Assembly (NCBI GenBank): GCA_018662405.1
Contig: JABJGE010000004.1
Span: 1 to 45,950, forward strand
Source of the DNA: Campylobacteraceae bacterium
GTDB lineage: Bacteria; Campylobacterota; Campylobacteria; Campylobacterales; Arcobacteraceae
Direction of reading: 5' to 3'
DNA: 45,950 nucleotides
Part shown: positions 2,929-24,771 of the stretch, piece after piece
How the letters are laid out: each line of letters starts with the position of its first letter
Position numbering within the stretch: position 1 is the first letter of the stretch
Position numbers and translations under genes: made by a program
The notes under the pieces: generated by a model
What the model was told of the DNA's origin: nothing
Seen by the model: the letters and a program-made list of their open reading frames with translations, nothing else
Database searches by the model: none

Positions 2929-2972
2929 TGGATAAAATCGCGATAATTAAAGATAAACAAAAGGATACAAAA

Positions 2973-4564: not shown

Positions 4565-4584
4565 AATAACTTAAGGTGTTAACT

Positions 4585-5823: not shown

Positions 5824-5828
5824 TAATT

Positions 5829-5854
5829 TTATATAATAAAACATTATATAATAA
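5829..5854 (+). promoter_or_regulatory. Tandem -10 repeat upstream of the first FCSD gene
   Basis: The 11-mer TTATATAATAA occurs at 5829-5839 and again at 5844-5854, and each copy contains TATAAT. The second copy continues into GT, giving TATATAATAAGT (5845-5856). The same 12-mer is found at 15961-15972, upstream of the paralogous flavoprotein gene. This is probably the promoter of the block A flavoprotein. Confidence 0.55.
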
Positions 5855-5910
5855 GTACTAAATAAGTAGGCGTATGGTATTCTTAATTTATGTTAATAAA
5901 AAGGAATACT

Positions 5911-7236
5911 ATGGCAATTTCAAGAAGAGATGCTCTAAAATACTCTACTATTTTAGCTGCATCAACTGCAATGGCAGGATCAACTAATACATCTAATCCA
6001 AAAGTAATTAAAAGTAATAATAAGGCAAGAATAGCTGACACTAATAAACCTAGAGTTGTTGTTGTTGGTGGTGGATGGTCAGGCTTATCAGTTGCAAAAT
6101 ATACTAAAATTTTTGCCCCTAATAGTGATGTGATTCTAGTAGAACAAAGACATGAATTTATTTCATGTCCTATGAGTAATTTATGGTTAGTTGATAAAAT
6201 AAACCTAGAATATTTAACTCATGATTATTTACAAGCTGCTAGAAATAATAATTATACATATTTTCAAGCTACTGCAACAGGATTAGATAAAACAAATAAT
6301 ATATTACATACTAGTAATGGTGATATAAATTATGATTATATTATTTTTGCTTGTGGAATAGATTACGATTATTCACGATGGACTAATGATATTGCATTTG
6401 AGACTAGACTTCGACAGGATTATCCAGCTGGATTTATCCCAGGTAGTGAACATATTACATTAAAAAATAAAATAAAAAACTTCAAAGGTGGAAATTTTAT
6501 CTTAACAGTACCATCTGGTAACTATAGATGTCTTCCTGCTCCATATGAAAGAGCATGTATCATTGCTGACTACTTTAAAAGTAAAAAGTTAGATGCTAAG
6601 GTTATATTACTAGATGAAAATAATACAGTGACTATTAAAAAGAAAGGTTTTGAATCTGCCTTCAATGAACTACATGGTGATTATATTGACTATCAAGTTA
6701 ATACAAAAATTTTAAATATTGATTTAGATAAAAAAGTTGTTACAACAGAATTTGACGATATAGAATTTGAAGATGCAGCATTTTATCCACATGTTAGAGG
6801 AGCAAGAATCCTTGAATTTGCAGGAATAGCAAAAGATGCTAAAAATATGCTTGAGGGTGATATAAATCCTTTAACATATGAAGTAAATGGCTATAACAAT
6901 ATATTTATATCTGGTGACTCTCGTCCTATGGGATTCTCTAAATCAGGAAATACAGCTAATTCAGAAGGACATTTTGTAGCAAAACTTATTGCAAGTAAGG
7001 TTAACAAAACTGCTCCTATTAAGTGGGAATCACCTACTACAACATGTTTTTCATGTGTGTCCTTAAACCCTGAAAGAGATATTTATATATACTCTAACTA
7101 CAAATATGATAAAAAATCTAAATCATTTAGCTTTACAAATACGTCAAGTAGTGAAGATTGGAAAAAGGATGGAAAAGTTAATGCAGATTCTGTTTATAAA
7201 TGGGCAGATGCATTGTATAAAGATATGTTCAGTTAA
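5911..7236 (+). CDS. fccB: FCSD-type sulfide dehydrogenase flavoprotein, copy A
   Basis: This is a 441-residue FAD enzyme of the flavocytochrome c sulfide dehydrogenase (FccB/SoxF) family, expected to oxidise sulfide or sulfane sulfur in the periplasm. It has a Tat signal (SRRDALK, then an Ala-rich stretch) and an FAD-binding VVVVGGGWSGLS. ISCPMSNLW follows, then two cysteines in the redox-disulfide contexts: YRCLPAPYERA (about Cys207) and TTTCFSC (about Cys379). A second GD motif is ISGDSRP. ATG 5911 is chosen over TTA-context ATG 5890 because AAGGAA precedes it closely and the Tat motif then sits at the N-terminus. No FccA heme subunit is adjacent. The gene faces the leftward soxCDYZ operon and is closely related to the copy at 16016. 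Confidence 0.88.
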   Translation: MAISRRDALKYSTILAASTAMAGSTNTSNPKVIKSNNKARIADTNKPRVVVVGGGWSGLSVAKYTKIFAPNSDVILVEQRHEFISCPMSNLWLVDKINLEYLTHDYLQAARNNNYTYFQATATGLDKTNNILHTSNGDINYDYIIFACGIDYDYSRWTNDIAFETRLRQDYPAGFIPGSEHITLKNKIKNFKGGNFILTVPSGNYRCLPAPYERACIIADYFKSKKLDAKVILLDENNTVTIKKKGFESAFNELHGDYIDYQVNTKILNIDLDKKVVTTEFDDIEFEDAAFYPHVRGARILEFAGIAKDAKNMLEGDINPLTYEVNGYNNIFISGDSRPMGFSKSGNTANSEGHFVAKLIASKVNKTAPIKWESPTTTCFSCVSLNPERDIYIYSNYKYDKKSKSFSFTNTSSSEDWKKDGKVNADSVYKWADALYKDMFS

Positions 7237-7241
7237 TACTC

Positions 7242-7273
7242 TTTAAAGCCCTATATAATTATAGGGCTTTAAA
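7242..7273. terminator. 14-bp perfect hairpin after FCSD copy A
   Basis: TTTAAAGCCCTATA at 7242-7255 pairs perfectly with 7260-7273, leaving a four-base loop. It begins six bases after the flavoprotein stop. The stem contains a GCCC/GGGC core, strong for this AT-rich genome. Confidence 0.8.
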
Positions 7274-7280
7274 AAACATT

Positions 7281-7308
7281 TATAAAGACACTTAGTAGTG
7301 TCTCTATA
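7281..7308 (-). terminator. Hairpin ending the block A sox operon
   Basis: AGACACT (7286-7292) pairs with AGTGTCT (7297-7303). The stem extends through one mismatch by TATA on both sides. Read leftwards, a T-rich tract with six Ts follows, as in an intrinsic terminator for the operon that ends at 7317. Confidence 0.7.
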
Positions 7309-7316
7309 AAAAATTA

Positions 7317-8249
7317 TTATTCTATTGTTTCGTTAACAGTGTCAACAAAAAGTTTTTGTGCATCATATAAAACTTTTTTAGATGGTGCATCTTTTATATC
7401 TAAAGAACTAATCCAGTTGTAAACTGATGGGAATGCCATATTTACAGTATCTGAACCTTTTTCTTTATACATATAGAATGTACAAGGTGCAAATGCTCCA
7501 GCTTCCGGATGTGTTTTTGCTACTTCAAAAATAACAGGTATTTTACAAATTGAATATGCATCAAAGAAATCATACTTATTAGTATCTTGCAAGATACTAT
7601 TTTCACCTAATTTATTAAAACCAGCAATTACAAAACCACCAGTCTCAAGTGAACCTTCAATCTCTTCTTGGAAACCTTCTAGTTCATCTTCAACAGCATC
7701 AGCAGCTACATCTTCCATTTCCCAAGAAAATCTAGTCACAAGCTCTGCCTCAGGTTTTAAGATTTTATAAGATAATTTCTCAAAGTGACCATTTGGTAAA
7801 GCTTTTTTAAGTACATTTTTCACAGAATTACTTAATTCAATCATATGTTTATTTGTTTTAGAAATACCAGTAACTTTTGCCATACCATCTAATGATATAG
7901 AAGATACAGAGATATCGTTTGAATCTGTATTTGTGTAAATTGACATACTTAATGGTGAAATCAATGCAGCATCTGGGTTAACCTTAATTAACTCAGCTGC
8001 TAAATCATCTTTATGTAAAACAATAAGATGATAAAGTTTATGATTCGTAACTTTATATTTTGAATCAAAAGCTCTATTCATATCATTATTAGTAGTTATA
8101 TAAAAACCAGCATCTTTAAATGCTTTTTCAATTGATTGTGGCGTAATTTTAGCATTAGAATTATCAGCAGTATATATCTGGATATCTTGTGCTACAGCAC
8201 TTGATATAAAGATAAATAATACTACTAGACTTTTAGTTAAAAAATTCAT
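7317..8249 (-). CDS. Exported protein with two DUF302 domains, copy A
   Basis: The 310-residue protein has a Sec signal peptide (VLFIFISSAVA then Q). Two DUF302-like halves follow: one around residues 35-125 (AFKDAGFYITTNNDMNRAF then AALISPLSMSIY), and one around 205-290 (GFVIAGFNKL then EAGAFAPCTFYMY). DUF302 has no firmly established function. Copies beside both sox sets suggest a role with SoxYZ or SoxCD in the periplasm. Its start overlaps the stop of the metallo-hydrolase gene as TAATG, implying translational coupling. A paralogue at 17320 carries a lipobox instead of a simple signal. Confidence 0.75.
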   Translation of the reverse strand: MNFLTKSLVVLFIFISSAVAQDIQIYTADNSNAKITPQSIEKAFKDAGFYITTNNDMNRAFDSKYKVTNHKLYHLIVLHKDDLAAELIKVNPDAALISPLSMSIYTNTDSNDISVSSISLDGMAKVTGISKTNKHMIELSNSVKNVLKKALPNGHFEKLSYKILKPEAELVTRFSWEMEDVAADAVEDELEGFQEEIEGSLETGGFVIAGFNKLGENSILQDTNKYDFFDAYSICKIPVIFEVAKTHPEAGAFAPCTFYMYKEKGSDTVNMAFPSVYNWISSLDIKDAPSKKVLYDAQKLFVDTVNETIE

Positions 8250-9355
8250 TATTCCTCTTCCTCTTCTTCATCATCTTCATCGTCTTCATCGTCACCTTCA
8301 TACATTTCTAACTCTTCATAAGCTCTAAATACATTTCCTGGACTAAGTAGATAATATAGATCTTTATTTCTAAATTCTTCAAGAGTAACATGTTTTGTAA
8401 TATCATCAGGATGAATTTCTTCTTCAATACCTTCTAATACTCTATCTTTAATATAAGTAAAGTATTGAATAGATTCATCTGCAGCTGTTCTATCTGTAAT
8501 AAAACCGTGTCCTGCAACTAAATGATTCCAGTCTCTAGCTTTTATTGCTTTAAGAGCATTAAGTTGACCAATGATTAGACCATCTCTATTAGATGTAACC
8601 CTACCGTTCATAACAACGTCAGCAACTAAAACAACTTTTTCTTCTGGTAAATATAAGAACCAATCTTCTTCAGAGTGAGCATATCCAACTTTTACATATT
8701 CCATTTTCATACCAGAAATTTCAAATTCTGTAGTATCTTTAAAATGTTCATCAACTTGTACTAGTGTTGTTTTTCTAATAGCATCTTGATATAAAGTTTT
8801 AATCATTCTAGTTTGCATACCTGGGTATTTTTTACCATCAATTTCTCTTGGACCATAATAGTTTGCATTAATAGAATGTGGTCCTATAATTTTAGCACCA
8901 TGAACTTCTTTATAATAATTATTACCTAGCCAGTGATCATCATGTTCATGACTAATAATAACAGTCTTAACAGGAAGTTTTGCAATCTTACTCATAGCAG
9001 CATAAGCTTGTTCAGCAAATACATACGAAGGACCACTATCCCATGCTATCCACTCAGTATCACCTTGTATATAACAACTGTTAGACATATCTCCAGCATT
9101 TTCTTTTGTTGGCATTTCCATGGCACCAAAGAAACACCAAACTTTATCACTAACTTGTACTGGTTTTAAATTATAATCCCAATCTGGACCAGCACCATCT
9201 CTCGTAGGTACCCATTCATTAAGAATAAAATTTCCATCTGCATCAAGCTTATGTGGATCTGTAATTGTAACTGATTTATTAAAAATGAATGGACTTGCAA
9301 TAACAAATATTACAAGCGCCACTATAGATAATAAAATACTTGATTTAATTTTCAT
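8249..9355 (-). CDS. soxH: SoxH-like MBL-fold metallo-hydrolase
   Basis: This 368-residue protein has an N-terminal hydrophobic anchor or signal (residues 5-24). Its metallo-beta-lactamase fold is marked by SHEHDDH (His136, His138, Asp140, His141), a later GYAHSEEDWF and AGHGFITD. Proteins of this type in sox clusters are called SoxH; their substrate is not established, and thiol or persulfide hydrolysis is inferred from related MBL enzymes. The C-terminus is a striking acidic tail with about 20 Asp/Glu in the last 25 residues. It lies 8 bases after soxZ and is coupled to the DUF302 gene. Block B has no counterpart. Confidence 0.75.
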   Translation of the reverse strand: MKIKSSILLSIVALVIFVIASPFIFNKSVTITDPHKLDADGNFILNEWVPTRDGAGPDWDYNLKPVQVSDKVWCFFGAMEMPTKENAGDMSNSCYIQGDTEWIAWDSGPSYVFAEQAYAAMSKIAKLPVKTVIISHEHDDHWLGNNYYKEVHGAKIIGPHSINANYYGPREIDGKKYPGMQTRMIKTLYQDAIRKTTLVQVDEHFKDTTEFEISGMKMEYVKVGYAHSEEDWFLYLPEEKVVLVADVVMNGRVTSNRDGLIIGQLNALKAIKARDWNHLVAGHGFITDRTAADESIQYFTYIKDRVLEGIEEEIHPDDITKHVTLEEFRNKDLYYLLSPGNVFRAYEELEMYEGDDEDDEDDEEEEEE

Positions 9356-9363
9356 AAGTATCC

Positions 9364-9666
9364 TTATTTAATTTTTTTCTTACCTGTTTTTGTTTTTCCA
9401 GTATGGTCAGTAAGTGTAAATACTAATTTATCACCCTTTTTTGCTCCTGTAAATGTAAATTTAAGAAGAGGATTTTCAGACATAAATCCACTTGTACTTG
9501 CTTCAAATACAATTTTATCATTAACAGTAGCTACGATTCTAGAAATATATTCTACAGGAACTTGTTTTTTCTCTGCTTCTTCTTTATCCGCCATTAGGCT
9601 TCTAAACATAGCTTTTACTTTTACTTTACCGTTTTTTACTTTTGCTTTAATTTTCATTTTTGCCAT
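9364..9666 (-). CDS. soxZ: Thiosulfate carrier subunit SoxZ, copy A
   Basis: SoxZ forms the SoxYZ heterodimer that presents the SoxY swinging arm to the Sox enzymes in the periplasm. The 100-residue protein has the compact all-beta pattern. YISRIVATVNDKIVFEASTS and FMSENPLLKFTF (residues 40-71) match the SoxZ core, where NP precedes the last strands. It has no signal peptide, as expected for a partner co-exported with Tat-targeted SoxY. A good AAAGGA precedes ATG. The 72-base gap to soxY is T-rich but holds no clear terminator. Confidence 0.92.
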   Translation of the reverse strand: MAKMKIKAKVKNGKVKVKAMFRSLMADKEEAEKKQVPVEYISRIVATVNDKIVFEASTSGFMSENPLLKFTFTGAKKGDKLVFTLTDHTGKTKTGKKKIK

Positions 9667-9738
9667 TTTATTTCCTTTGTATTTATATTTTTATTTTATT
9701 TTGTTTTATTTTAATATGTTAGTTGTGGGATGATTAAA

Positions 9739-10200
9739 TCAACCTCCACAACCACCAATAGATACATCTACTTCTTTAGCAGTAGTTAATAATTGACCAT
9801 CTCTAGTTTTTGCTACAATAGTAATAACTGCAGTTTGTCTCATCTTAATTCTAAAAGAATAATCTACTTTTTGACCTTCAGGTACAGAGAATACAACCGT
9901 AGCTGCTCTTGGATTTGCATCTTGGAATAATGCAATAGTTTCAATATCTAATTTACTTGTTAAAGTAATCGGAATTGATCCACCATTTTCAGCTAAGTCT
10001 GGTGCTTTCATTTTAATCTTATCAGATTTTTTTAATCCAGCTGATCCAAACATCTCTTTAATTGCATCAACAGACTTCTCTGCTTCCCATGCTTTTGGTT
10101 TTGTAGTTCTAAAGTCTACTGCTCTTAAGCTTGTTACTGGTGCAACTGCTAAAGCTAGTGCCGCAGCACTTAATCCAAAAAATTTTCTTCTATTCATCAT
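9739..10200 (-). CDS. soxY: Thiosulfate-binding protein SoxY, copy A
   Basis: SoxY carries sulfur intermediates covalently on a C-terminal cysteine. The 153-residue protein has a Tat signal (NRRKFFGLSAAALALA), the family core IALFQDANPRAA near residues 89-100, and the canonical GGCGG terminus with Cys151. AAAGGA lies seven bases before the first ATG. The gene sits between soxD and soxZ in the leftward operon. The intact arm suggests a fully functional carrier, in contrast to the altered terminus of copy B. Confidence 0.95.
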   Translation of the reverse strand: MMNRRKFFGLSAAALALAVAPVTSLRAVDFRTTKPKAWEAEKSVDAIKEMFGSAGLKKSDKIKMKAPDLAENGGSIPITLTSKLDIETIALFQDANPRAATVVFSVPEGQKVDYSFRIKMRQTAVITIVAKTRDGQLLTTAKEVDVSIGGCGG

Positions 10201-10234
10201 TTTATTTTCCTTTGTTTTAGTTTGACTAGATTTA

Positions 10235-11416
10235 CTAGTGTTTTTTATTTGAATCTACCATAAATTCAACAATTTGTTTAATTTCTGTATTTGTTAAGTC
10301 CATATTACCACCTTTTGGAGGCATTCCACCCATACCTTGGATAGCATTATGAACAACTTCAGCAAAACCTTTTTCCATTACATCAGCCCATGCATCTGTA
10401 TCACCAACTGCTGGTGCACCCATTGAATCAGTAGCATGACAAAGCTTACAAGATTCATTGTAAAGTGTCTCTGCTTTTGAAACACTTTTGTTTTCAACTA
10501 CAGGAGGAAGATCTCTTACCGTTGAATAAGGAGGAACAACATCACTCATCTCGTACTTAATTTTTACAACTGAAGCTTCTGTTTTTCCATCTTTACCACC
10601 TGGATCTTTACAATCAGTCATACATCTTGTACCAGAACCAATATTTTTAGCACGATCAGCAAAGAACGCTCTAATATCTTCTTGTGCATTTGGACCATCA
10701 ATATTTGGATAGAATCCATCTCTATTTGGAAGAGTAACTTTCATAAGTTTTTCTTTATTAAGTACATATTCCTCATCCATCTCTACACCATCAATCTCAA
10801 TACCATTATTAGCTAATAAATAAGCAGTAATAGCATAAGTTTCACTATTTGTTAAACTTTTTGGATGTGCATATGGCATAGCATCTCTAATATATGTAAA
10901 TAATGTAGTTGCAACAGGCCAATAAGTACCAACAGTTCTTTTTGGTGCATCAGTACTTCCATATACTCTTTGATTTTTAAGAGTTATAACTATTCCATTT
11001 TCATCTTTATCTTGATTACCACCTGTTAACTGAGGGTAACCATTTCCACCAGCACCAAATTCACCATGACAAGATGCACATTGCGCTTCATAAAGTTCAT
11101 CACCAAGTTCAACTGATCCCTCACCTTCAGGTAAACCAGTACCATCTGGTAATGCATCAACATCCCATGCTTTGATCTCATTTGCAGTTGCTTCTCTACC
11201 AAAATTAACACCTTTAGTACTTTGCTCATTATATTTATAAGCAGCATAGTTACCATTAGCTCTTTTGTAAGTTACACCACCGTCAATAGCAGTTTTATTT
11301 TTTATTTCATACTCTCCAACAGTCGCAGGTGCAGCTATTGATACAGAAACTAATAAAGCAGATGTTGCTATTGCTTTTATTCCATTTGTAATTGATTTAT
11401 GATCTAACTTGAACAT
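10235..11416 (-). CDS. soxD: Diheme cytochrome c SoxD, copy A
   Basis: SoxD is the electron-accepting diheme subunit of sulfane dehydrogenase SoxCD. The 393-residue protein has a Sec signal (about 15-30) and two heme sites, CASCH at 113-117 and CKLCH at 323-327. The second domain has a GMGGMPPKGG Met-ligand loop. A pair of cysteines (RCMTDC, about residue 262) between the domains could form a disulfide. The start overlaps the end of soxC by 20 bases with AAAGG just upstream, so translation is probably coupled. Electrons would pass to a soluble cytochrome c or terminal oxidase. Confidence 0.9.
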   Translation of the reverse strand: MFKLDHKSITNGIKAIATSALLVSVSIAAPATVGEYEIKNKTAIDGGVTYKRANGNYAAYKYNEQSTKGVNFGREATANEIKAWDVDALPDGTGLPEGEGSVELGDELYEAQCASCHGEFGAGGNGYPQLTGGNQDKDENGIVITLKNQRVYGSTDAPKRTVGTYWPVATTLFTYIRDAMPYAHPKSLTNSETYAITAYLLANNGIEIDGVEMDEEYVLNKEKLMKVTLPNRDGFYPNIDGPNAQEDIRAFFADRAKNIGSGTRCMTDCKDPGGKDGKTEASVVKIKYEMSDVVPPYSTVRDLPPVVENKSVSKAETLYNESCKLCHATDSMGAPAVGDTDAWADVMEKGFAEVVHNAIQGMGGMPPKGGNMDLTNTEIKQIVEFMVDSNKKH

Positions 11417-12704
11417 TTGTCACCTTTCCTTTAGCATCAACAGCCCATGTATGTATAGCATTTCTGTGGTAAACACCTTCAACACCTACAACTTTTTTCT
11501 CTTGATTTACAGTTGGTTGAACATTATCAGAATCATCATAAGAACGACTTTGTAATAATAATGGCTTACCTTCATATCTATACATGTAACTAAATCTTGT
11601 CCAAGCTTTTGGAAGAACTAAACCTTTAAGATTTGCTTCTACCCAGTTTTTACCACCGTCAAAACTTATATCTACACCCTTGATAGTACCATGCCCAGAC
11701 CATGCAAGACCTTCAATTTCAACTAAATCACCTACTTTAAGATCAGTCCATGGATATTCAGGACATGGTGAAGTAATTACTGAGTTTGTCTCATTTGCAT
11801 AGAAATGTTGAATAGCTTTACCACTTGCAGTAAGTGCAGTATACTTAGAAGTTTCCTCTTTAGCATACCACGGTTTATCACCAAATTCTAATCTTTTTAA
11901 CCACTTAACACAAAGATTCGCTTCCCAACCCGGAGCTAATAAACGAACTGGGTAACCCTGCTCATCTCTTAATGCTTCACCATTCATAGCATAAACAATC
12001 ATAACGTCATCTAGTACTTTTTCAATTGGTAATGTTCTACTCATCTCTGAACCATCACTACCTTCTGCTAACATCCATTTAGCTTCAGGTTTAAGTCCTA
12101 ATTCATCAAGAATAGTTTTTAATCTTACACCTGTCCATTCAGTACAACTCATCATACCTCTTACAAACTGTAGAGAACCAAACTGTGGACCTTTCCACTC
12201 AGCTGCACCATTTGAAGGACATTCTAAAAAGTGAATTCTTGTTTCACTTGGATATCTCTTAAGTTGATCAAGAGTAAGTACAATAGATTTTTCTACAAGC
12301 CCATGAATCATTAATCTAAATTCATTTGGATTAATATGTGCTACACCATTATGTGTTCTAGTAAAGTGTAATCCATTAGGAACAATAATTCCCTCTAACT
12401 CATGTAAAGGTGTCATAGAAATAGCTGCATGCATATCTCCAGCTGAAGACATCAATGCAGATGTTCTTCTTACTACATTATGCTCATACTTAGATGGTAA
12501 ACCATACGGATTAAAGTTACACTCATCTCCTAAAGTTGTACCCCATTTTGTGTGGTGAATAATATTTTTATCATCTAGATCTGATCCAAGAACTGTTGAT
12601 GGAGCTATAATACTAGCTGCAGCAACGGCACTTACAGATGCTGTTTTTCTGAAAAAATCTCTTCTACTAATAGATGTTGATTCTTCTAACATTGTTTTAT
12701 TCAA
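11397..12704 (-). CDS. soxC: Sulfane dehydrogenase molybdenum subunit SoxC, copy A
   Basis: SoxC is a sulfite-oxidase-family molybdopterin protein that, with SoxD, oxidises the SoxY-bound sulfane sulfur. The 435-residue protein has a Tat signal (SRRDFFRK at 13-20). The molybdenum-ligand cysteine is in HFLECPSNG (Cys162), and the C-terminal dimerisation domain contains EGLAWSGHG and DISFDGGKNW. The start codon is TTG at 12704, five bases after GGAG; the next ATG is too far from any SD. The 55-base gap upstream lacks an obvious promoter, so it may be read from the cytochrome-SQR operon. Confidence 0.93.
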   Translation of the reverse strand: MNKTMLEESTSISRRDFFRKTASVSAVAAASIIAPSTVLGSDLDDKNIIHHTKWGTTLGDECNFNPYGLPSKYEHNVVRRTSALMSSAGDMHAAISMTPLHELEGIIVPNGLHFTRTHNGVAHINPNEFRLMIHGLVEKSIVLTLDQLKRYPSETRIHFLECPSNGAAEWKGPQFGSLQFVRGMMSCTEWTGVRLKTILDELGLKPEAKWMLAEGSDGSEMSRTLPIEKVLDDVMIVYAMNGEALRDEQGYPVRLLAPGWEANLCVKWLKRLEFGDKPWYAKEETSKYTALTASGKAIQHFYANETNSVITSPCPEYPWTDLKVGDLVEIEGLAWSGHGTIKGVDISFDGGKNWVEANLKGLVLPKAWTRFSYMYRYEGKPLLLQSRSYDDSDNVQPTVNQEKKVVGVEGVYHRNAIHTWAVDAKGKVTNVQVRS

Positions 12705-12759
12705 TTTCTCTCCTTTTATTAAATTAATTTCTATAGCTATTTATTCTTAAAATAATTTG

Positions 12760-13200
12760 CTAAGCAATTTGTTCCACATTATTTGTTAATTCAAATATTA
12801 ACTTTTTTCTTTCATAAGATAAATTATTAAGAATCTCTTCCCCAACAACTTCTCTATCTTGCCATTCAGATTCCTCATGAATATTAAAAAACTTTTTAAA
12901 ATAATTATAGTGAGCATCACTACTTGTTATTTTGAAGAAATAAAATCTAAAATAACCTATATCATTAATAGCATTTATGGCAAATTGCTTTCCTTCACTA
13001 TTAGGATAAACATCTTCTTTTATCCAATTAATGAAAAAATCAGATTCTTTGAACCAGTTATATAAATCTATATCTACACCTTTTAGAAGATTAAATGTTT
13101 TCTCTTGTTCTTCATTTAACTCTAAAGTATAAACATTTTCATCAATGTCAAACTTATCTTGATCCTGATCATATACTACTAATTCAAATTCTACTTGCAT
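12760..13200 (-). CDS. Unknown acidic 146-residue protein in the sox operon
   Basis: I do not recognise this protein. It is acidic and rich in aromatic residues (LYNWFKESDFFINWIKEDVY, residues 46-65, and GYFRFYFFKI), with no cysteine, signal peptide or membrane helix, so it is probably cytoplasmic. It lies 9 bases after the SQR-like gene and 55 bases before soxC in the same direction. The frame is intact with ATG. It might be an assembly or quality-control factor for the exported redox proteins, but that is only positional inference. Confidence 0.65.
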   Translation of the reverse strand: MQVEFELVVYDQDQDKFDIDENVYTLELNEEQEKTFNLLKGVDIDLYNWFKESDFFINWIKEDVYPNSEGKQFAINAINDIGYFRFYFFKITSSDAHYNYFKKFFNIHEESEWQDREVVGEEILNNLSYERKKLIFELTNNVEQIA

Positions 13201-13209
13201 AAATAAATC

Positions 13210-14682: not shown

Positions 14683-14692
14683 AATTATCCTT

Positions 14693-15070
14693 TTATTTTA
14701 AATTATTAACATATTTGGCAACTGCATCAATTTCTGCCCAAGAAAGATCAACTGTAACGCTTCTCATTAAAGAACCATAACCATATTTATTATGAGTTTG
14801 GTAATTTTTACTTTTAATACCACCCCTGTAATCTTTTAAATCTTTTATTAATGCATTTGTATCTACACCTGCAATCTCACCATATTTAATTCTAGATGAA
14901 CCTTCATAACTTGTTTGCTTACCATTGTCTCCATGACAACTAGAACATTGTTTTTTATAGATAACATCACCTTTTGGTGCTAATAATAATCCAGTTTTAT
15001 ATATAGGAGCATTATTAGATGCAAATAAAGTAGTACCTACTACTAATATAGATAGCATAATCTTTTTCAT
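14693..15070 (-). CDS. Small monoheme cytochrome c
   Basis: This 125-residue class I-like cytochrome has a Sec signal (MKKIMLSILVVGTTLFA) and one heme site, CSSCH, near residues 36-40. The likely axial Met is in GSLMRSVTVDLSWAEIDAVA near the C-terminus, a layout seen in small sulfur-pathway cytochromes. It is the first gene of a leftward run and lies 10 bases before the SQR-like gene, so it is the obvious candidate electron acceptor for it, in the manner of FCSD heme subunits. A clear SD (GAGGT) precedes ATG. Confidence 0.85.
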   Translation of the reverse strand: MKKIMLSILVVGTTLFASNNAPIYKTGLLLAPKGDVIYKKQCSSCHGDNGKQTSYEGSSRIKYGEIAGVDTNALIKDLKDYRGGIKSKNYQTHNKYGYGSLMRSVTVDLSWAEIDAVAKYVNNLK

Positions 15071-15426
15071 TTTTGACCTCTCAATAATTTATGTGTAATC
15101 ATTGTAGAGTAAACAATCTTATGTAAAACTAAATCTAATATTAAATTTTATTAATAGTATGATAATTATATATTATTTAAGTCTAAACTTTATTAGTAAA
15201 GTGCCTACATATAGGGGCATAATAAATAGTTATGTTAAATATAAGTATAATATTTACTCATTTATAATTAATAATAATTTTTATATTACCAGTCATTTGT
15301 ATGTCATGATATAAATAATAATTATATTAACTAATTCAAAAAATAATGTAGATAATAAAAGTAAAGGAATAAATGAAGCTTTTAGTTTATAGAAAGTACT
15401 ATAAAGATAATTTTATGTAAATAATT
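15071..15426. other. 356-base intergenic region between cytochrome c and SoxW-like genes
   Basis: This very AT-rich spacer holds the upstream region of the leftward cytochrome-SQR-sox operon. I see the shared box at 15174-15189, and a short GC-richer dyad at 15202-15219 (TGCC...GGCA around ACATATA) that may be an operator. There is a 7-bp hairpin at 15386-15405 (TTTATAG/CTATAAA) that may terminate the SoxW-like gene, and a tiny open frame at 15373-15420. I see no tRNA or larger gene. Confidence 0.5.
15174..15189 (-). promoter_or_regulatory. Shared 16-bp box upstream of the cytochrome c-SQR-sox operon
   Basis: TATTTAAGTCTAAACT here matches TATTTAAGTCTATACT at 21822-21837 in 15 of 16 positions. 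The box lies 104 bases upstream of the cytochrome c start; its partner lies 80 bases upstream of the second soxC. No other window position was noticed with this match. It may bind a common regulator or be an upstream promoter element. Confidence 0.35.
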
Positions 15427-15915
15427 TTACCATTCATCATCTTCTAGTTCTAATTCTTGAATAAATGCTTCAAGGTCTATTTTTTTATAGCTTTTAGATG
15501 ATATATACTTTATCTCTTTATAATATTCTTCAACATTTCTATAACCTATAGATTTATACAAGACATCTCCATTTTTATTAATATAATATGTTGCTGGATA
15601 TGCAGGTACTTTCATAGATTTTGAGAACTCTTTATGTGCACCTGTAAAATTCTTAAATCTAACTATACCTTGATCTTTTGTATATATATCAACTAATAAA
15701 AAGTCTTTATCTAATTCATTTAAAATTTTTTGACTTTTAAAATTCTCAGAAAGCATTGTTTCACAGTAATTACAAGATGGGATATGGAAAAAAATCATTA
15801 TTAATTTATCTTCATTAGATGCAATATTCATTTTATTATTCATATCAATATCAGTATTGGCAATAGCCATACCTGCAAATAATAAAATAAATACAATTTT
15901 ATTAATAAAAAGCAT
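15427..15915 (-). CDS. SoxW-like periplasmic thioredoxin
   Basis: The 162-residue protein has a signal peptide (INKIVFILLFAGMAIA) and a thioredoxin fold with CNYC (Cys48, Cys51) in HIPSCNYCETM. VPAYPATYYI provides the cis-proline loop. The C-terminus is acidic (ELELEDDEW). SoxW proteins in sox clusters probably keep SoxY or other periplasmic thiols reduced. A longer frame reaches back to 16110, but it would run through the divergent flavoprotein gene. ATG 15915 has AAAGGA in the right place and begins the signal peptide. The gene is divergent from FCSD copy B. Confidence 0.82.
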   Translation of the reverse strand: MLFINKIVFILLFAGMAIANTDIDMNNKMNIASNEDKLIMIFFHIPSCNYCETMLSENFKSQKILNELDKDFLLVDIYTKDQGIVRFKNFTGAHKEFSKSMKVPAYPATYYINKNGDVLYKSIGYRNVEEYYKEIKYISSKSYKKIDLEAFIQELELEDDEW

Positions 15916-15960
15916 TGGTAGATCCTTTGGTAATAACTTCAGTCTATATACTAACATAAG

Positions 15961-15972
15961 TATATAATAAGT
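15961..15972 (+). promoter_or_regulatory. Putative -10 region for FCSD copy B
   Basis: TATATAATAAGT, containing TATAAT at 15963-15968, lies 55 bases before the ATG. The identical 12-mer lies 66 bases before the ATG of copy A (5845-5856). Conservation across the paralogues supports a real promoter. Confidence 0.55.
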
Positions 15973-16015
15973 GACTTGATGATATCTTACATTTATAAAA
16001 TAATAGGAAATAAGT

Positions 16016-17311
16016 ATGACAAGAAGAGATATACTAAAAGCTTTAGGTTTACTTGTATCTACTACTGCTACAGCAAGTATCACAAAAAATAGTATTATAA
16101 AAAAATCCAACCCACAAAGAGTGGTTATTGTTGGTGGTGGCTGGTCTGGTCTTTCAATTGCGAAAAATATAAAAATGTTATCAAAAGAAACAGATGTTCT
16201 ATTAGTTGAGCAAAATGATAAATTTATTTCTTGTCCTATGAGTAATCTCTGGCTTGTAGATAAAGTTAGCTTAGAGTATTTAACTCATGATTATGAAGAA
16301 GCAGCAAACAATAATAACTATACATTTTTAAATGCAAAAGCTTTAGACTTAGATAAAAAAAATAATATTTTACATACTACTTCTGGAGATCTAAACTATG
16401 ATTATATTATATTTGCTCCAGGTATTGACTATGATTATTCATTTTTAACAAATAATAATTTAGTTTTAGAAAGAAGATTAAGACAAGAATATCCTGCTGG
16501 TTTTAAACATGGTACAGAACAGCTTACACTTAAAAATAAAATACAAAATTTTAAAAATGGAAATTTTATTATGACAGTACCTGCAGGAAACTATAGATGT
16601 TTACCTGCTCCTTATGAAAGAGCTTGTTTAGTAGCAGATTATTTTAAATCAAAAAATATAAATGCAAAAGTTATTTTACTTGATGAAAATAATGACATTA
16701 CTATTAAAGAGCATGGATTCCACACAGCATTTGAAGAATTATACTCTGGTTATTTGGAGTATTATCCAAATTCTAAAATAGAATATATTGATTTAGATGA
16801 AAAATTTATAGAAACAGAATTTCAAGAATTTTATTTTGATGATGCATCATTTTATCCAAGGGTTAAAGGTGCAAAAATATTAGAAAAAGTTGGTATTGCA
16901 AAAGATACAGTATTTAATAGACTTGAGGGTAATATAGATGGATTAACATATCAAGTCATTGGAGAGGAAAATATCTTCATATCTGGAGATGCTAGACCTA
17001 TGGGATTTTCTAAGTCTGGTAATACATCAAGTACAGAAGGTTTGTATGTAGCAAAACTAGTTGTAAATAAAATAAATAATAATTCACATATATCATGGGA
17101 ATCACCAACAACTTTATGTTTTTCAGCAGTATCTGTTAATCCTGAGCAAGCAATATTTATAAATTCACAATATTCATATAATAAAAAAAGTAAAACATTT
17201 GGTTTTGCAACTCCAAAGACTAGTGAAGTATGGAAAGGAAATGAGGGTTTAGAAAATGCAAAAGCCCAGTATAACTGGGCAGATGCAATGTATAAATATA
17301 TGTTTAAATAA
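16016..17311 (+). CDS. fccB: FCSD-type sulfide dehydrogenase flavoprotein, copy B
   Basis: This 431-residue paralogue of the gene at 5911 is expected to be a periplasmic FAD sulfide dehydrogenase subunit. The Tat-like start is TRRDILKALGL, and the FAD motif is VVIVGGGWSGLS (36-47). The redox-disulfide cysteines are in YRCLPAPYERA (Cys194) and TTLCFSAVS (Cys368). The latter lacks the extra Cys that copy A has three residues on. Long stretches are identical to copy A, including FISCPMSNLWLVDK. AGGAAA lies seven bases before ATG. It converges on the second DUF302 gene with an 8-base gap, and no heme subunit is adjacent. Confidence 0.87.
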   Translation: MTRRDILKALGLLVSTTATASITKNSIIKKSNPQRVVIVGGGWSGLSIAKNIKMLSKETDVLLVEQNDKFISCPMSNLWLVDKVSLEYLTHDYEEAANNNNYTFLNAKALDLDKKNNILHTTSGDLNYDYIIFAPGIDYDYSFLTNNNLVLERRLRQEYPAGFKHGTEQLTLKNKIQNFKNGNFIMTVPAGNYRCLPAPYERACLVADYFKSKNINAKVILLDENNDITIKEHGFHTAFEELYSGYLEYYPNSKIEYIDLDEKFIETEFQEFYFDDASFYPRVKGAKILEKVGIAKDTVFNRLEGNIDGLTYQVIGEENIFISGDARPMGFSKSGNTSSTEGLYVAKLVVNKINNNSHISWESPTTLCFSAVSVNPEQAIFINSQYSYNKKSKTFGFATPKTSEVWKGNEGLENAKAQYNWADAMYKYMFK

Positions 17312-17319
17312 AACTATAT

Positions 17320-18321
17320 CTATTCAATAGTTGAATCTATTGTTGATTCAAGTAAGTTTTGAGCATCAATTAAAGGCTCTAGAGAAGATTCATCTTCTAT
17401 ATTTGTAGTCATTACCCAGTTATAAACAGATGGATAAGCCATATGAGTTACTTTTTCATCTTTTTTCTTATACATATACATAGTACAAGGTGCTAATGCT
17501 CCAACTTCTGGATATTTTTTATGTACAGGATATATAACTTCTAACTTACAAATAGAATAAGTATCATAAAAATCAAAATCTTTTATACCATTTGATTCAA
17601 GATCTTCATTGATTGGAGTAAAACCAGCAACAATAAATCCATTAGATTCAATCTCACCTTCCATCATCTCTTGATAAGTTTCTTTTGACTCTTCAATATT
17701 ATTAGATTCATTATTCATAACAAATTTAAATTTCGTAACAATTTCACCATCAGGTCTTACAATTTTATAATTAAGATCCTTAAATGAACCGCTTGGTAAA
17801 GCCTCTTTTAAAGCTTTTGTCATATTATTACTAAGTGCTATTAGATTAGGATTACTTACAGGTACTCCTGATATTCTAGACATACCTTCTATTGAAAGTG
17901 ATGATATATTTATAGTTTTACCATCTTTTGAAAATACAGAAGTACTAAGTGGTGATAAAAGTCCAAATGCTGGATAATCTTTTATAAGTTTTGCACTTAG
18001 TTTAGCGTTATATACAAACATTAATCTATACATACTGTAATCTGTTCCAGCCGTAGGAATTTTTTTGCCAAATCTTCCTTTAAATGCCTGATTCATATCA
18101 TTGTTTCCACTAATCATAAATCCATTTGCTTTAAATGCAGCTTCAATACTCTCTTTTGTTATTTTTTCACTATTTTGTGTAGTAAAAATTCTAACATCGT
18201 CTCTTACCTGTGCTTTTTTAACAGTTTTTGCTCCAACATTTGGAGTAGAGATTTCTTGACTACAACCACTAAAGAACAATACTAAAGCTGAAGTTACAGT
18301 TAAAATAACTATATTTTTCAT
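17320..18321 (-). CDS. Lipoprotein with two DUF302 domains, copy B
   Basis: The 333-residue paralogue of the 7317 gene has a lipoprotein signal: hydrophobic VTSALVLFFSGC with the lipobox Cys at about residue 20. Two DUF302-like halves follow, at about 55-150 (FKANGFMISGNNDMNQAFKG then FGLLSPLSTSVF) and 225-310 (GFIVAGFTPI then EVGALAPCTMYMY). Function is unknown. Membrane anchoring here versus a free protein in block A suggests different partners or sites. It is the last gene of the second leftward sox operon; its end holds a small ATTCAA/TTGAAT hairpin (17322-17336). Confidence 0.75.
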   Translation of the reverse strand: MKNIVILTVTSALVLFFSGCSQEISTPNVGAKTVKKAQVRDDVRIFTTQNSEKITKESIEAAFKANGFMISGNNDMNQAFKGRFGKKIPTAGTDYSMYRLMFVYNAKLSAKLIKDYPAFGLLSPLSTSVFSKDGKTINISSLSIEGMSRISGVPVSNPNLIALSNNMTKALKEALPSGSFKDLNYKIVRPDGEIVTKFKFVMNNESNNIEESKETYQEMMEGEIESNGFIVAGFTPINEDLESNGIKDFDFYDTYSICKLEVIYPVHKKYPEVGALAPCTMYMYKKKDEKVTHMAYPSVYNWVMTTNIEDESSLEPLIDAQNLLESTIDSTIE

Positions 18322-18335
18322 TTATTTTCCTTTTA

Positions 18336-18740
18336 TTATCTTTTCTTTTTTCTTGATGTAAGCTCAACAGATTTTTTATAAGTGTTACCTTTTCTATCTG
18401 AAGCTGTTATTATAAGAATATCACCTTTTTCAGTTTCTTTTCTTGTTACACCATTATCTATTTCTCTACCTGATAATTTTTTACCAACTTTAAAAGAATT
18501 AGATTTAAATTGAAACTTCAAAATAGGATTTTTAGAAAAAAACTGACTAGTAGATATATCTAATACAGTTTCCTTACCTATTTTACCAGTAATATGAGTA
18601 ATGAAGTTTGCATCATCCCTATTACCTGTTTTAGTTTTAGCTTGGTTATAAGTCATCATAGGGTGACTAAATGCCATTTTAGCTGTTGCTATATCATTCT
18701 TAATTTTAATTTTTACAGCTGTTATTTTATTTCTTGCCAT
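18336..18740 (-). CDS. soxZ: Thiosulfate carrier subunit SoxZ, diverged copy B
   Basis: The 134-residue protein keeps the SoxZ core (FITHITGKIGKETVLDISTS, then FFSKNPILKFQF). It is longer than the 100-residue copy A, with an added basic loop around residues 81-105 (SFKVGKKLSGREIDNGVTRK) and a basic tail (TSRKKKR). Such an insertion near the SoxY-facing end could change partner choice. It lies 10 bases after soxY copy B, with an AAGGATAGGTGA SD region. No signal peptide is present, consistent with co-export with SoxY. Confidence 0.85.
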   Translation of the reverse strand: MARNKITAVKIKIKNDIATAKMAFSHPMMTYNQAKTKTGNRDDANFITHITGKIGKETVLDISTSQFFSKNPILKFQFKSNSFKVGKKLSGREIDNGVTRKETEKGDILIITASDRKGNTYKKSVELTSRKKKR

Positions 18741-18750
18741 CTATATTCAC

Positions 18751-19206
18751 CTATCCTTCACATCCGCCAGCAGCAACTTCCGTTGTTACCTTGTTCATAT
18801 AAATTCTACCATCTGTTCCTTCTACTAGAACCATAATAGTACCACTTGCACCCATCTTAATCTTTGCTTCATATTTTTTTACATCATATATATTTACATC
18901 ATAAACAGCAACTGCACTTTCTGGGTTTGCATCTTGAAATAAAGCTATAGTTTTTGCATCAAGAGTTGTACCAAATTTTACTGGAACGGCACCACCACTT
19001 GAATTTATTTTTGGTACTGAAAGTTTTACTTCATCACTTTGTATTACATCTTTTACACCATACATAGCTTTTGTAGCATCATCAATAGTATGTGCTTCCC
19101 ATACTGAAGGTTTTGACTTTCTGTAATCTTCAGCACTTAAATTCATTGGAATTACAGAAAGTGCTACGGCACCACCTGCAAAACTTAAAAAATCTCTTCT
19201 ATTCAT
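18751..19206 (-). CDS. soxY: Thiosulfate-binding protein SoxY, diverged copy B
   Basis: SoxY copy B has a Tat signal (NRRDFLSFAGGAVALS), the core IALFQDANPESA, and a C-terminal carrier cysteine in GGCEG. The canonical end is GGCGG, so the residue after Cys is Glu instead of Gly. I prefer ATG 19206 (151 residues) over 19212, because AAGGG (19213-19217) is spaced six bases from 19206 but abuts 19212. It is much less similar to copy A than the two SoxC proteins are to each other. It follows soxD by a few bases. Confidence 0.9.
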   Translation of the reverse strand: MNRRDFLSFAGGAVALSVIPMNLSAEDYRKSKPSVWEAHTIDDATKAMYGVKDVIQSDEVKLSVPKINSSGGAVPVKFGTTLDAKTIALFQDANPESAVAVYDVNIYDVKKYEAKIKMGASGTIMVLVEGTDGRIYMNKVTTEVAAGGCEG

Positions 19207-19215
19207 CTTCATCCC

Positions 19216-20409
19216 TTAAAACTTTAACATATAGTCAACAACTTGTTTAAACTCATCATCATTTAATGATGAACCACCTTTTGCTGGCATACCCATATTT
19301 GTACCTTCTAAACCATTTTTATATACTTTAGAAAGACCTTTTTCTAATAATGATGCCCATCCAGCTTTATCTCCTGCTGCAGGTGCTACACCTGTTGCAT
19401 GACACATAGCACAACTAGCATCATATGCAGCTTTTACATCAAAAATAACTTTATGAGATGCATTGTCTTTTTTAACAGGTAAATCTCTTTTAACTGCCAT
19501 AGGTGGTTCAAAATCTGTAATACCACCATCAACTCTAACTATGTTATCTGTTTGTTGACAATTTGACATACAAGGTTCTTCACCTTTTTTAAGTCTAATA
19601 GCACCATAGTTATCTGGATTTTTATAAAATTCTCTTACATTTTCAAGACCATTTGCTCCATCTATATCTGGAATAAAACCATTTCTATTTGGCATTTCTA
19701 TTTGTAAGAATTTCTCTTTATTTAACTTATATGTCTCATCAACTATCTCACCATTTACTTTCATACCATTAATATAAAGCATATATGCTGTAAGTGAATA
19801 AACTTCATCATCAGTTAATGTTTTAGATTTAGTATGTGGCATAGCATCTCTTATATACCACCACATAGTACTAGCTACTGGCCAATATGAACCAAATACT
19901 CTAGAAGGTCCCTCTGCAGTAGGATTTAACCATCTGTTATTTTGTAATGTTCTTTTGATCTCTTTAGCTTTACCAGCTGATAATGCTGGATATCCACCAC
20001 CACCAGATCCAAAGTCACCATGACACATCATACATTGAGACTCATATAAAACTTCACCTTCATCAACATAACCTGTCCCTTCTGGTAATCCTTCATTTAA
20101 TCCATTTATATCTTTATCCCATGCTTTTAGTTCATTTGCAGTTGGAACTCTACCGTGATTATAAGCAGCTTTAATTCCACTATTATTTTTTGATACATCT
20201 GAATTTTTGAATACTTGTGTATTTACTTTATATGGTCCTGTTTGTCCATTTGAAATTGGATAATAAACACCACCACTTATATCTTTTTTTGCATTCCAAA
20301 GTCCATTATATGCAGAAGATTCAATATCTTTAGCCTGTCCTGAAGTTAATAATGTTACAGAAGCTACAATAGAAGCTGCTATCATTTTATACTGTTCTGA
20401 TTTGAACAT
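19216..20409 (-). CDS. soxD: Diheme cytochrome c SoxD, copy B
   Basis: The 397-residue partner of SoxC copy B has a Sec signal (about residues 8-26) and heme sites CMMCH (126-130) and CAMCH (333-337). The late GMPAKGG loop probably holds the axial Met. As in copy A, a cysteine pair (PCMSNC) lies between the heme domains. The start overlaps soxC by 23 bases and is preceded by a strong GGAGG. The overlap with soxC is kept in both blocks, an ancestral arrangement. Confidence 0.9.
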   Translation of the reverse strand: MFKSEQYKMIAASIVASVTLLTSGQAKDIESSAYNGLWNAKKDISGGVYYPISNGQTGPYKVNTQVFKNSDVSKNNSGIKAAYNHGRVPTANELKAWDKDINGLNEGLPEGTGYVDEGEVLYESQCMMCHGDFGSGGGGYPALSAGKAKEIKRTLQNNRWLNPTAEGPSRVFGSYWPVASTMWWYIRDAMPHTKSKTLTDDEVYSLTAYMLYINGMKVNGEIVDETYKLNKEKFLQIEMPNRNGFIPDIDGANGLENVREFYKNPDNYGAIRLKKGEEPCMSNCQQTDNIVRVDGGITDFEPPMAVKRDLPVKKDNASHKVIFDVKAAYDASCAMCHATGVAPAAGDKAGWASLLEKGLSKVYKNGLEGTNMGMPAKGGSSLNDDEFKQVVDYMLKF

Positions 20410-21742
20410 GTTTTACCTCCCCATTTGCTGTTACTTCCCAAGTTTCTACAGCATTTCTATGATATACAGACTCTACACCCATACCTTTTGTTTTATCCTT
20501 ACCAAAATTCTCTTTTGATACACCATTACCAAATACTTCTTGATCAACTGTAGGTTGAATAAAGCCAGCATCATCCATTGCTCTAGATGTAAGTAATAAA
20601 ACTTCACCTTTTTTGTATGTATGCATAAAGCTCCATCTAGTCCAACATTTTGGAAGAACTTCACCTTTAATATGTGCATTAACATAATTGTTTCCACCGT
20701 CAAATGATAAATCAACTCTAGTAATAGTACCCATACCAGACCACGCAAGACCTTCAATTTCAATTACATCACCATCTTCTAAATGTGTCCAGTCTTTTTC
20801 ACAACTTGGACTTACTACTGTAGAATTTACTTCATTTGCATAGAAATGTTGTATTGCTTTACCAGTTGGTTGAAGTGCAGTATATTTAGATGTTTCCTCT
20901 TTTGCGTACCATGGTTCGCTAGAGAATTCTAATCTTTTTAACCACTTAACACATAAGTTACCTTCCCAACCTGGAAGAAGTAATCTTAATGGATAACCTT
21001 GTTCAGGTCTTAATGCTTCACCATTTTGACCCCATACAAGCATAGCATCATCAAGTACTTTATCAATTGGTACAGATCTTCCCATCTCAGAGTTGTCACT
21101 TCCTTCTGCAAGCATCCATTTAGCTTCAGGTTTAATACCTAAATCTTCTAGAATAGTCTTAATATAAACACCTGTCCACGATGCACAAGCCATAAAACCT
21201 TTTGCAAATTGAAGAGAATTATATTGTGGTCTTCTCCACTCTTGTCCACCATTAGCTGGACACTCAATAAAGTGAGTTCTAGTTACTCTTGGATATTTTT
21301 TTAATTGATCAAGTGTTAATACAATCTCTTTATCTACCATTCCATTAATCATAAGTCTAAACTCATTTGGATCAATATGTGCAGTACCACCATGACTTCT
21401 TGAGAAGAATAACCCATTTGGTGTAATTATACCTTCACTTTCATGTATAGGTGTAACAGCAATTGATGCTCTATAATTACCAGATGCTAAAAGTTTTGTA
21501 TTTCTTCTAGTATTATTATGTTCATATGCAGATGGAATACCATATCTATTTTTTGTAACAGGGTCTCCCCATGATTGTCCCCATTTTGGATGATGCATTA
21601 TTGCTTGATCATCTTCACTTGCCAATGCTTTTACTGGATCTAATACAGATGCAGCAGCAATTGCACTTACAGATGCAACTGTAGCTTTTTTAAAAAAGTC
21701 TCTTCTACTAATTGTAGAATTTGTTTCTTTATTCGGTGTCAT
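20387..21742 (-). CDS. soxC: Sulfane dehydrogenase molybdenum subunit SoxC, copy B
   Basis: The 451-residue molybdopterin subunit has a Tat signal (SRRDFFKK at 12-19). The molybdenum-ligand cysteine is in HFIECPANG (Cys161), and the C-terminal domain contains EGLAWSGMG and DLSFDGGNNY. It is very similar to copy A, but has an extra loop (about residues 406-425, FGNGVSKENFGKDKTKG) near the C-terminus. ATG is preceded by GGAGGA. It is the first gene of the second leftward sox operon; the 16-bp box it shares with the other operon lies 80 bases upstream. Confidence 0.93.
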   Translation of the reverse strand: MTPNKETNSTISRRDFFKKATVASVSAIAAASVLDPVKALASEDDQAIMHHPKWGQSWGDPVTKNRYGIPSAYEHNNTRRNTKLLASGNYRASIAVTPIHESEGIITPNGLFFSRSHGGTAHIDPNEFRLMINGMVDKEIVLTLDQLKKYPRVTRTHFIECPANGGQEWRRPQYNSLQFAKGFMACASWTGVYIKTILEDLGIKPEAKWMLAEGSDNSEMGRSVPIDKVLDDAMLVWGQNGEALRPEQGYPLRLLLPGWEGNLCVKWLKRLEFSSEPWYAKEETSKYTALQPTGKAIQHFYANEVNSTVVSPSCEKDWTHLEDGDVIEIEGLAWSGMGTITRVDLSFDGGNNYVNAHIKGEVLPKCWTRWSFMHTYKKGEVLLLTSRAMDDAGFIQPTVDQEVFGNGVSKENFGKDKTKGMGVESVYHRNAVETWEVTANGEVKHVQIRTV

Positions 21743-21821
21743 TTTTCCTCCATTATTTTTGATGATAGAACAATACTAAAAAGATTTATCAAATTAAATA
21801 TTATTTAGTATTTAAAATTTA

Positions 21822-21837
21822 TATTTAAGTCTATACT
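21822..21837 (-). promoter_or_regulatory. Shared 16-bp box upstream of soxC copy B
   Basis: TATTTAAGTCTATACT differs by one base from the box at 15174-15189 and has the same orientation relative to its operon. It may be a binding site for a regulator common to the two sox operons. Confidence 0.35.
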
Positions 21838-21986
21838 AATATAAATTTTATCATATGTAATTTTAACTTTTTTTAACTATAACTATACTTAAAATTATAC
21901 GTACAAAGCCTTTAGATATTGACTTATATTACTTTTATATAATAAATATAAACAAAAAAGAATATTTAAAATAGATCTTTTAGTCC

Positions 21987-22015
21987 TTGACAATTAATTC
22001 TAATTATATTAAAAT
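21987..22015 (+). promoter_or_regulatory. Near-consensus sigma-70 promoter for the MOSC gene
   Basis: A perfect -35 TTGACA (21987-21992) is separated by exactly 17 bases from TAAAAT (22010-22015). The expected start of transcription is near 22022, some 37 bases before the preferred ATG. A consensus -35 is uncommon in this genome's style. Confidence 0.65.
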
Positions 22016-22058
22016 AACATAATAAATAATTATAGTAAATTAACTTATGGAATTTATA

Positions 22059-24760: not shown

Positions 24761-24771
24761 ACGCGAATATA

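Follow-up and report, generated by a model that had tools for sequence, protein, structure and literature searches.

Layout of the two sox blocks

The window, the whole stretch of DNA that was analysed, comprises 45,950 nucleotides of one contig (JABJGE010000004.1, C40 in our numbering) from a metagenome-assembled genome (MAG) of the family Arcobacteraceae (assembly GCA_018662405.1; 1.31 Mb in 105 contigs, 95% complete, contamination estimate 0.78%). One inserted stretch, from 4109 to ~22499, carries two blocks of sulfur-oxidation genes, A and B, each with a flavocytochrome c sulfide dehydrogenase flavoprotein (FCSD), SoxC, SoxD, SoxY, SoxZ and a DUF302 protein. This arrangement is probably best explained as two separately evolved sox modules, neither of them the usual one, lying side by side in the junction between dnaJ and a small metallo-β-lactamase (MBL) gene and differing in their release chemistry. 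The features of the inserted stretch are as follows (Tat, twin-arginine translocation; Moco, molybdenum cofactor).

4109–4564, +, small conserved protein, encoded first in the inserted stretch; 3/12 A-type and 15/34 B-type blocks have a homologue nearby
4576–5823, +, N-terminal region followed by a TlpA/ResA-like thioredoxin domain with WCPPC
5890–7236, +, FCSD-A, Tat-exported FccB-like sulfide dehydrogenase flavoprotein; in the tree it joins the FCSD proteins from SoxH-bearing Sulfurimonas/Sulfurovum blocks
7317–8249, −, DUF302-A (PF03625; A-type clade)
8249–9355, −, SoxH, MBL-fold putative sulfate-releasing hydrolase, in A only; HEHDDH metal motif, Lactamase_B, TIGR04558/04559 homology below cut-off
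9364–9666, −, SoxZ-A (TIGR04490 above cut-off)
9739–10200, −, SoxY-A, swinging arm end GGCGG (TIGR04488 above cut-off)
10235–11416, −, SoxD-A (haem motifs and tree)
11397–12704, −, SoxC-A, Moco sulfur dehydrogenase with Tat signal; Sulfurimonas/Sulfurovum clade, support 99
12760–13200, −, small A-type-specific hypothetical protein (hyp), 146 aa, between soxC and sqr; neither a Pfam nor a PDB fold match
13210–14682, −, Tat-exported sulfide:quinone oxidoreductase-like protein (SQR) of block A; NF049943 below cut-off
14693–15070, −, monohaem cytochrome c (CxxCH), end of block A; same place in A-type blocks
15427–16110, −, periplasmic thioredoxin-like protein with CNYC (PF13098), partner of block B; its longest reading frame shares ~95 nt with the start of FCSD-B
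16016–17311, +, FCSD-B, FccB-like flavoprotein
17320–18321, −, DUF302-B, lipoprotein-like N-terminus (PF03625; B-type clade)
18336–18740, −, SoxZ-B, extended, 134 aa
18751–19212, −, SoxY-B, swinging arm end GGCEG
19216–20409, −, SoxD-B (haem motifs and tree)
20387–21742, −, SoxC-B, Moco sulfur dehydrogenase with Tat signal and Mo-ligand Cys; alignment to 2xts, B-type clade, support 96
22047–22499, +, MOSC-domain protein (PF03473), far edge of the inserted stretch; family near 12/12 A and 27/34 B loci

The original prediction, made from the letters of the window, had described one layout occurring twice, and this was confirmed: the set FCSD / soxC-D-Y-Z / DUF302 is present with intact open reading frames at 5890–12704 (block A) and 16016–21742 (block B), and in both the rightward (+) FCSD gene converges on the leftward (−) genes from soxC-D-Y-Z to DUF302. 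The overlap of soxC and soxD is likewise kept, at 20 nt in A and 23 nt in B. The extra gene between soxZ and DUF302, given in brackets in the predicted layout, exists in A, where it encodes the SoxH-type metallo-hydrolase, and is absent from B. The true right end of block A is at 15070, with hyp, SQR and cytochrome c accompanying A-type blocks; the gene group at 12760–15070 is assigned to A because hyp and SQR occur in 11/12 A-type and 0/34 B-type loci.

Identity between the blocks (BLASTP) is far beyond chance for every pair, at 61% for FCSD, 60% for SoxC, 43% for DUF302, 40% for SoxD, 38% for SoxY and 29% for SoxZ. The uneven divergence that had been pointed out is mostly an ordinary rate difference of these proteins: block A compared with the usual Arcobacteraceae sox gives the same order (SoxC ~65%, SoxD ~43%, SoxY ~50%, SoxZ lower still in most).

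Tat-like signals were found on SoxC, SoxY and FCSD of both blocks, two CxxCH haem motifs are present in SoxD of each, and the active-site features of SoxC and SoxD are conserved in both, including the Mo-ligand Cys of SoxC. Both SoxC proteins pass the TIGR04555 cut-off of 420 bits (A 611.7, B 546.1). For SoxY (TIGR04488, cut-off 125 bits) and SoxZ (TIGR04490, cut-off 76 bits) the A proteins pass, with 130.9 and 88.8 bits, and the B proteins fail, with 94.6 and 61.9 bits. As judged by this score and by its GGCEG arm, SoxY-B is a SoxY homologue of a variant kind. FCSD-A was recognized as an FccB flavoprotein by PF21706/PF09242 and FCSD-B by homology to 5n1t and 1fcd; no gene for an FccA cytochrome subunit adjoins either, the nearest monohaem cytochrome belonging to the SQR end of A. 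The product of the first gene of the stretch (4109–4564, 151 aa) recurs beside sox blocks of several families; it has no Pfam match, and its AlphaFold model (pLDDT 93) has no PDB fold match.

Origin of the blocks and of their site

Trees of SoxC, SoxD, SoxY, SoxZ, DUF302 and FCSD, which the original prediction had named as its check, place the blocks with different lineages, as transfer predicts: A lies in the SoxH clade of Sulfurimonas and Sulfurovum, and B in a clade of Arcobacteraceae and Sulfurospirillum. The sox cluster usual in Arcobacteraceae forms a third lineage; in the host genome no SoxC was found besides those of A and B. An old duplication of the block, one of the two origins that had been suggested, is contradicted by these results, A and B being sisters in none of the six trees. 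Forcing them together was rejected by the approximately unbiased (AU) test with p = 1e-73 for SoxC, 1e-6 for SoxD, 1.5e-60 for SoxY, 4e-5 for SoxZ and 5e-7 for DUF302, the five genes that the test covered; the two FCSD proteins are in different supported clades, FCSD-B being the sister of the FCSD in the B block of the Arcobacteraceae genome G072 (100/100). Membership of the class of tandem duplications, in which the copies are sisters, was rejected accordingly (p ≤ 4e-5 for each of these five genes).

Block A is a Sulfurimonas/Sulfurovum-type soxCDYZH module with SQR, cytochrome c and FCSD. Its closest relatives reach 91% identity in SoxC, and its full gene order, cytochrome c–SQR–hyp–soxC-D-Y-Z-H–(thioredoxin)–MOSC–DUF302–FCSD, is found in Sulfurimonas (G407, G414, G344, G428 and G537) and Sulfurovum (G352 and G313). 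In the loci with this order SoxC is 81–91% and the SQR at the same place 71–82% identical to that of A, and the Sulfurovum A-type loci resemble the window in having FCSD face DUF302. SoxH-A has 67–81% identity with its counterparts in the nearest A-type blocks and 50–61% with those in the other ones. No A-type SoxC was found among the other Arcobacteraceae that were compared with both types (the 33-genome part of the phylum sample plus 29 fetched loci).

Block B is of a type scattered in Arcobacteraceae and Sulfurospirillum MAGs, namely soxCDYZ with DUF302, thioredoxin and FCSD. Its SoxC has relatives of up to 87% identity; B-type SoxC (77–87%) is carried by ten of the 84 SoxC-bearing Arcobacteraceae (the host, G072, G046, G049, G050, G055 and G037–G040), occurs also in Sulfurospirillum MAGs and, more distantly, is the sole SoxC of many Sulfurimonas and Sulfurovum. 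The order soxCDYZ–DUF302–thioredoxin recurs among B-type loci. The thioredoxin at 15427–16110 is 45–51% identical to that beside the B-type blocks of Sulfurospirillum-like MAGs and G055 and 21–35% to the A-type ones. An FCSD beside a B block was otherwise met only in G072 and in one MAG labelled Helicobacteraceae.

The flanks belong to the host family. RpoD (24750–26669) is 71–76% identical to that of most Arcobacteraceae, the small-genome group g6 being an outlier at 59–63%, and at most 69% to that of other families; DnaJ (2928–4100) is 77–78% identical to that of the members G051 and G052. In six Arcobacteraceae relatives dnaJ and the small MBL gene are immediate neighbours (gap ~0), with leuB-leuD and rpoD next in line; in the window 18.4 kb separate dnaJ from the MBL gene, and this space is taken up by the sox stretch, 4109–22499. 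Because the junction is closed in these six relatives, the stretch was evidently inserted into a conserved housekeeping neighbourhood. The small MBL gene (22504–23097) is inverted in the window and joined to leuB, and for this reason the insertion is taken to have come with a local rearrangement. No repeats, tRNAs or recombinase genes marking a mobile element were found at the borders of the stretch, and a scan for promoters and terminators gave counts not above those of shuffled sequences. The remainder of the window (23100–45950) holds core genes: leuBD, rpoD, an M3 peptidase gene, obg, dnaG, rnhA, rnc, aroC, a csd3-like peptidase gene, mgtE, gidB, ribA, hemB, argF, hemN and lgt.

Acquisition of a relative's block, the other suggested origin, is supported for both blocks, as both differ from the sox cluster usual in the family and relatives have nothing inserted at the site. 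The later specialisation of the carrier that had been added to it is not needed for the divergence; the types already differed in the SoxY arm and in SoxH before they met. Other accounts of the locus have to be weighed against this evidence. A chimera, in which sox contigs from other Campylobacterota were joined to one of Arcobacteraceae during assembly or binning, might be suspected because the MAG is in 105 contigs and the intergenic DNA where A and B meet is AT-rich, but is highly improbable: both flanks are Arcobacteraceae, the contamination estimate is low, the codon usage of A and B is nearer to the host's than that of relatives' blocks is, SoxC identity to any known donor is not above ~92%, and the G+C content at third codon positions (GC3; 0.139 in A, 0.124 in B) is near that of the host (0.108), with A below every A-type relative measured (0.187–0.41). 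Base composition was also tried as a sign of recent transfer and was not deviant, GC3 being close to the host; amelioration or an AT-rich donor is considered instead. Tandem duplication of a single sox block within this genome, with its carrier diverging afterwards, could claim the shared layout and overlaps, the adjacency and the ~60% identity of the FCSD and SoxC pairs, and yet is scarcely tenable in view of the trees and AU tests, the far closer relatives that each block has elsewhere, and the hyp, SQR and SoxH genes that accompany A only. The occurrence of B-type SoxC in four further Arcobacteraceae genera (g6, g8, g10 and g12) would suit a block B ancestral to the family and lost from most genera, with A alone acquired. 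This is improbable, given that so few SoxC-bearing family members carry the type, that B loci lie in differing neighbourhoods across genera, that two families are intermingled in the B clade closest to the window and that the site is empty in relatives.

The SoxY arm, SoxH and product release

Genomes were assigned to A or B type by SoxC identity, and the two types are separated by the end of the SoxY arm and by SoxH. The arm ends in GGCEG in all 37 B-type rows with a readable arm and in GGCGG in 23 A-type and usual rows; SoxH was found neither in block B nor in any of the 34 B-type loci. Among Sulfurimonadaceae genomes of at least 90% completeness, block-type SoxH is present in 38/39 of A type and 0/64 of B type (Fisher p = 2e-27, a descriptive value and not an independent-sample test, the genomes being related). 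In this family 22 A-type genomes are without SoxB and 21 of them keep the block SoxH (the exception is G454); 23 B-type genomes are without SoxB, and 22 of these (22/64 of B type overall) are without a SoxH homologue too, including three single-contig assemblies (G259, G396 and G616).

Block A, with its operon SoxH, falls under soxCDYZH; block B, lacking it, is not filed there and belongs with the SoxH-less GGCEG soxCDYZ type by its arm, the lack of an operon SoxH and its B-type SoxC clade. A complete canonical Sox system (soxXYZABCD in one cluster) is not present in the host, as soxB is on another contig (C17), where it stands with a SoxY gene and neighbours in the order X-Y-Z-A-B and runs off the contig end. 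The SoxY of C17 (L088, 16829–17338) ends in GGCG, one residue short of GGCGG. The host genome has three different SoxY arm ends.

For the release of sulfate from SoxYZ when SoxB is absent or unexpressed, published accounts of the Campylobacterota dominant at vents and in sulfidic redoxclines leave a choice between SoxH and self-catalysis. At sulfidic redoxclines the transcripts of soxCDYZH accompany those of sqr, soxB being barely expressed, and SoxH was proposed as the release enzyme (PMC9122950); soxCDY2Z2H2 is upregulated on S0, the choice between SoxH2 and self-catalysed release being left open (PMC10045233). Strains with soxCDYZ alone were reported to convert sulfide to thiosulfate and sulfate (PMC10470523). 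In vitro, the cargo group on the SoxY arm decides SoxB binding (PMC5336275).

Both modules of the host would work in the periplasm. SQR and FCSD would convert sulfide to sulfane sulfur or polysulfide, loading the Cys of the SoxY arm, and SoxCD would oxidise the outermost sulfur to sulfonate, with the electrons passing to cytochrome c, before the oxidised sulfur is released. In block A SoxH would free it as sulfate. Release from block B would have to go another way, because a Glu directly follows the arm Cys, SoxH is missing and some relatives are without SoxB; it might yield sulfite or thiosulfate by exchange with polysulfide or a thiol/thioredoxin, or proceed by self-catalysed hydrolysis near the arm Glu. 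We infer such a hydrolase-free B-type chemistry from the gene sets. The host would then operate two carrier systems that differ in how the product is released, in addition to the soxXYZAB cluster on the other contig, and may use three carriers (those of A, B and C17). A wider proposal, that Campylobacterota possess two chemically distinct SoxCDYZ machines, one with GGCGG and a hydrolase (SoxH or SoxB) and one with GGCEG that is hydrolase-free (by exchange, or by self-catalysis helped by the arm Glu), both united in one island in the host, is put forward tentatively.

The blocks could instead be redundant in dosage or conditional isozymes, with the same chemistry, SoxB and SoxH acting on both and differences confined to regulation or affinity. 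The active-site features kept in SoxC and SoxD of both blocks agree with this, as do the release enzymes available in trans (soxB on C17, soxH in A) and the reading of SoxY-II diversification as an adaptation to the sulfur substrate or its concentration (PMC5904459). We consider it rather unlikely, since the arm and the SoxH linkage differ systematically between the types, B-type genomes persist with neither SoxB nor SoxH, and SoxY-B and SoxZ-B score below NCBIfam equivalog cut-offs that the A proteins pass. Several points nevertheless weigh against two modules of different release chemistry. In the SoxC tree the arm state changes once and SoxH presence likewise changes once, so that their association is one historical event and not replicated mechanistic evidence. 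An unrecognised hydrolase could serve B-type genomes, and the host SoxB might serve both blocks in trans. Acquisition of both blocks from the lineages of relatives is supported; for B, an old presence in the family followed by loss from its other members is conceivable.

In the survey, SoxCDYZ clusters that papers had treated as one kind fall into two, a GGCGG type linked to SoxH and a GGCEG type lacking it, the latter also in genomes without SoxB and SoxH. The split predicts different end products and offers a single-residue test. No genome other than the host was found to hold the two types together, here at a single site, and the host would provide a natural comparison of product release. 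The locus also shows that sox modules move between families as units and can be stacked.

Comparison with known systems

A and B were found together in one genome only once, in the host, among 364 SoxC-bearing genomes of three families, a count with a small gap in that some Arcobacteraceae genomes had SoxC scored against B only. A single SoxC was found in 155/155 SoxC-bearing Sulfurimonadaceae and in 123/125 Sulfurovaceae, which bears out the earlier view that the arrangement is not a standard one. Both module types are already known. We could not find a description of the SoxH/arm split or of the A and B pairing in a search that lay outside the main papers on SoxY diversification, so the arm change may have been described; the literature matches listed for the string GGCEG were unrelated to Sox, and swinging-arm mutations in Campylobacterota SoxY have been noted before (PMC11237559).

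Two other MAGs resemble the host in part. An Arcobacteraceae MAG from Guaymas (G037; L067, G037:C8, ~5870–19000) likewise has two SoxC-D-Y-Z sets, ~10.8 kb apart, one with GGCGG and one with GGCEG, but there the B-type block is paired with the sox cluster usual in Arcobacteraceae, SoxB included, not with an A-type block, and the site is different. Because this genome pairs the usual sox with B, side-by-side stacking of GGCGG and GGCEG sets has happened at least twice. A Sulfurovaceae MAG (G693; L198, G693:C3, 1–8300) has two soxC copies in tandem, 4.2 kb apart; unlike those of the host they score identically, and only DUF302-MOSC-soxC-soxD is repeated, head to tail, which is either a very recent duplication or an assembly artefact.

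The sox cluster usual in Arcobacteraceae, in which soxB is among the genes that come after soxCDYZ, shares its enzymes and the GGCGG arm with A. It differs from both blocks in that its SoxC is ~65% identical to each and that DUF302 or FCSD lies alongside in 0/9 loci; it was not found in the host. The SoxH-less soxCDYZ of many Sulfurimonas and Sulfurovum and of some Arcobacteraceae and Sulfurospirillum MAGs matches B in gene order, GGCEG arm, DUF302 and thioredoxin, the nearest SoxC being 77–87% identical. Unlike B, it is normally the sole SoxCDYZ in Sulfurimonadaceae, and in most Arcobacteraceae carriers it is accompanied by the usual sox elsewhere. Comparative papers speak of soxCDYZ without distinguishing this type (e.g. 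PMC10470523, PMC7952632). The cluster of Kmv13 was named soxCDYZH (PMC7565565); despite that name no SoxH homologue was found in the Kmv13 genome (G290) at E ≤ 1e-20.

In Sulfurimonadaceae, aroC (with rnc and rnhA) is often a neighbour of the sox block, be it of A or B type, as though one version could take the other's place at a single locus; aroC is within ~6 kb of 9/14 A loci and 9/28 B loci, Sulfurovum and others included. The soxCDYZH (soxCDY2Z2H2) cluster of Sulfurimonas and Sulfurovum (PMC9122950, PMC10045233, PMC7565565) agrees with A in its genes and their order, in SQR, cytochrome c, DUF302 and FCSD, in the GGCGG arm and in SoxH, with SoxC 81–91% identical where the layout is full. 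It differs in position: in many Sulfurimonas it is near aroC, whereas block A lies between dnaJ and the MBL gene of an Arcobacteraceae genome, beside a second block.

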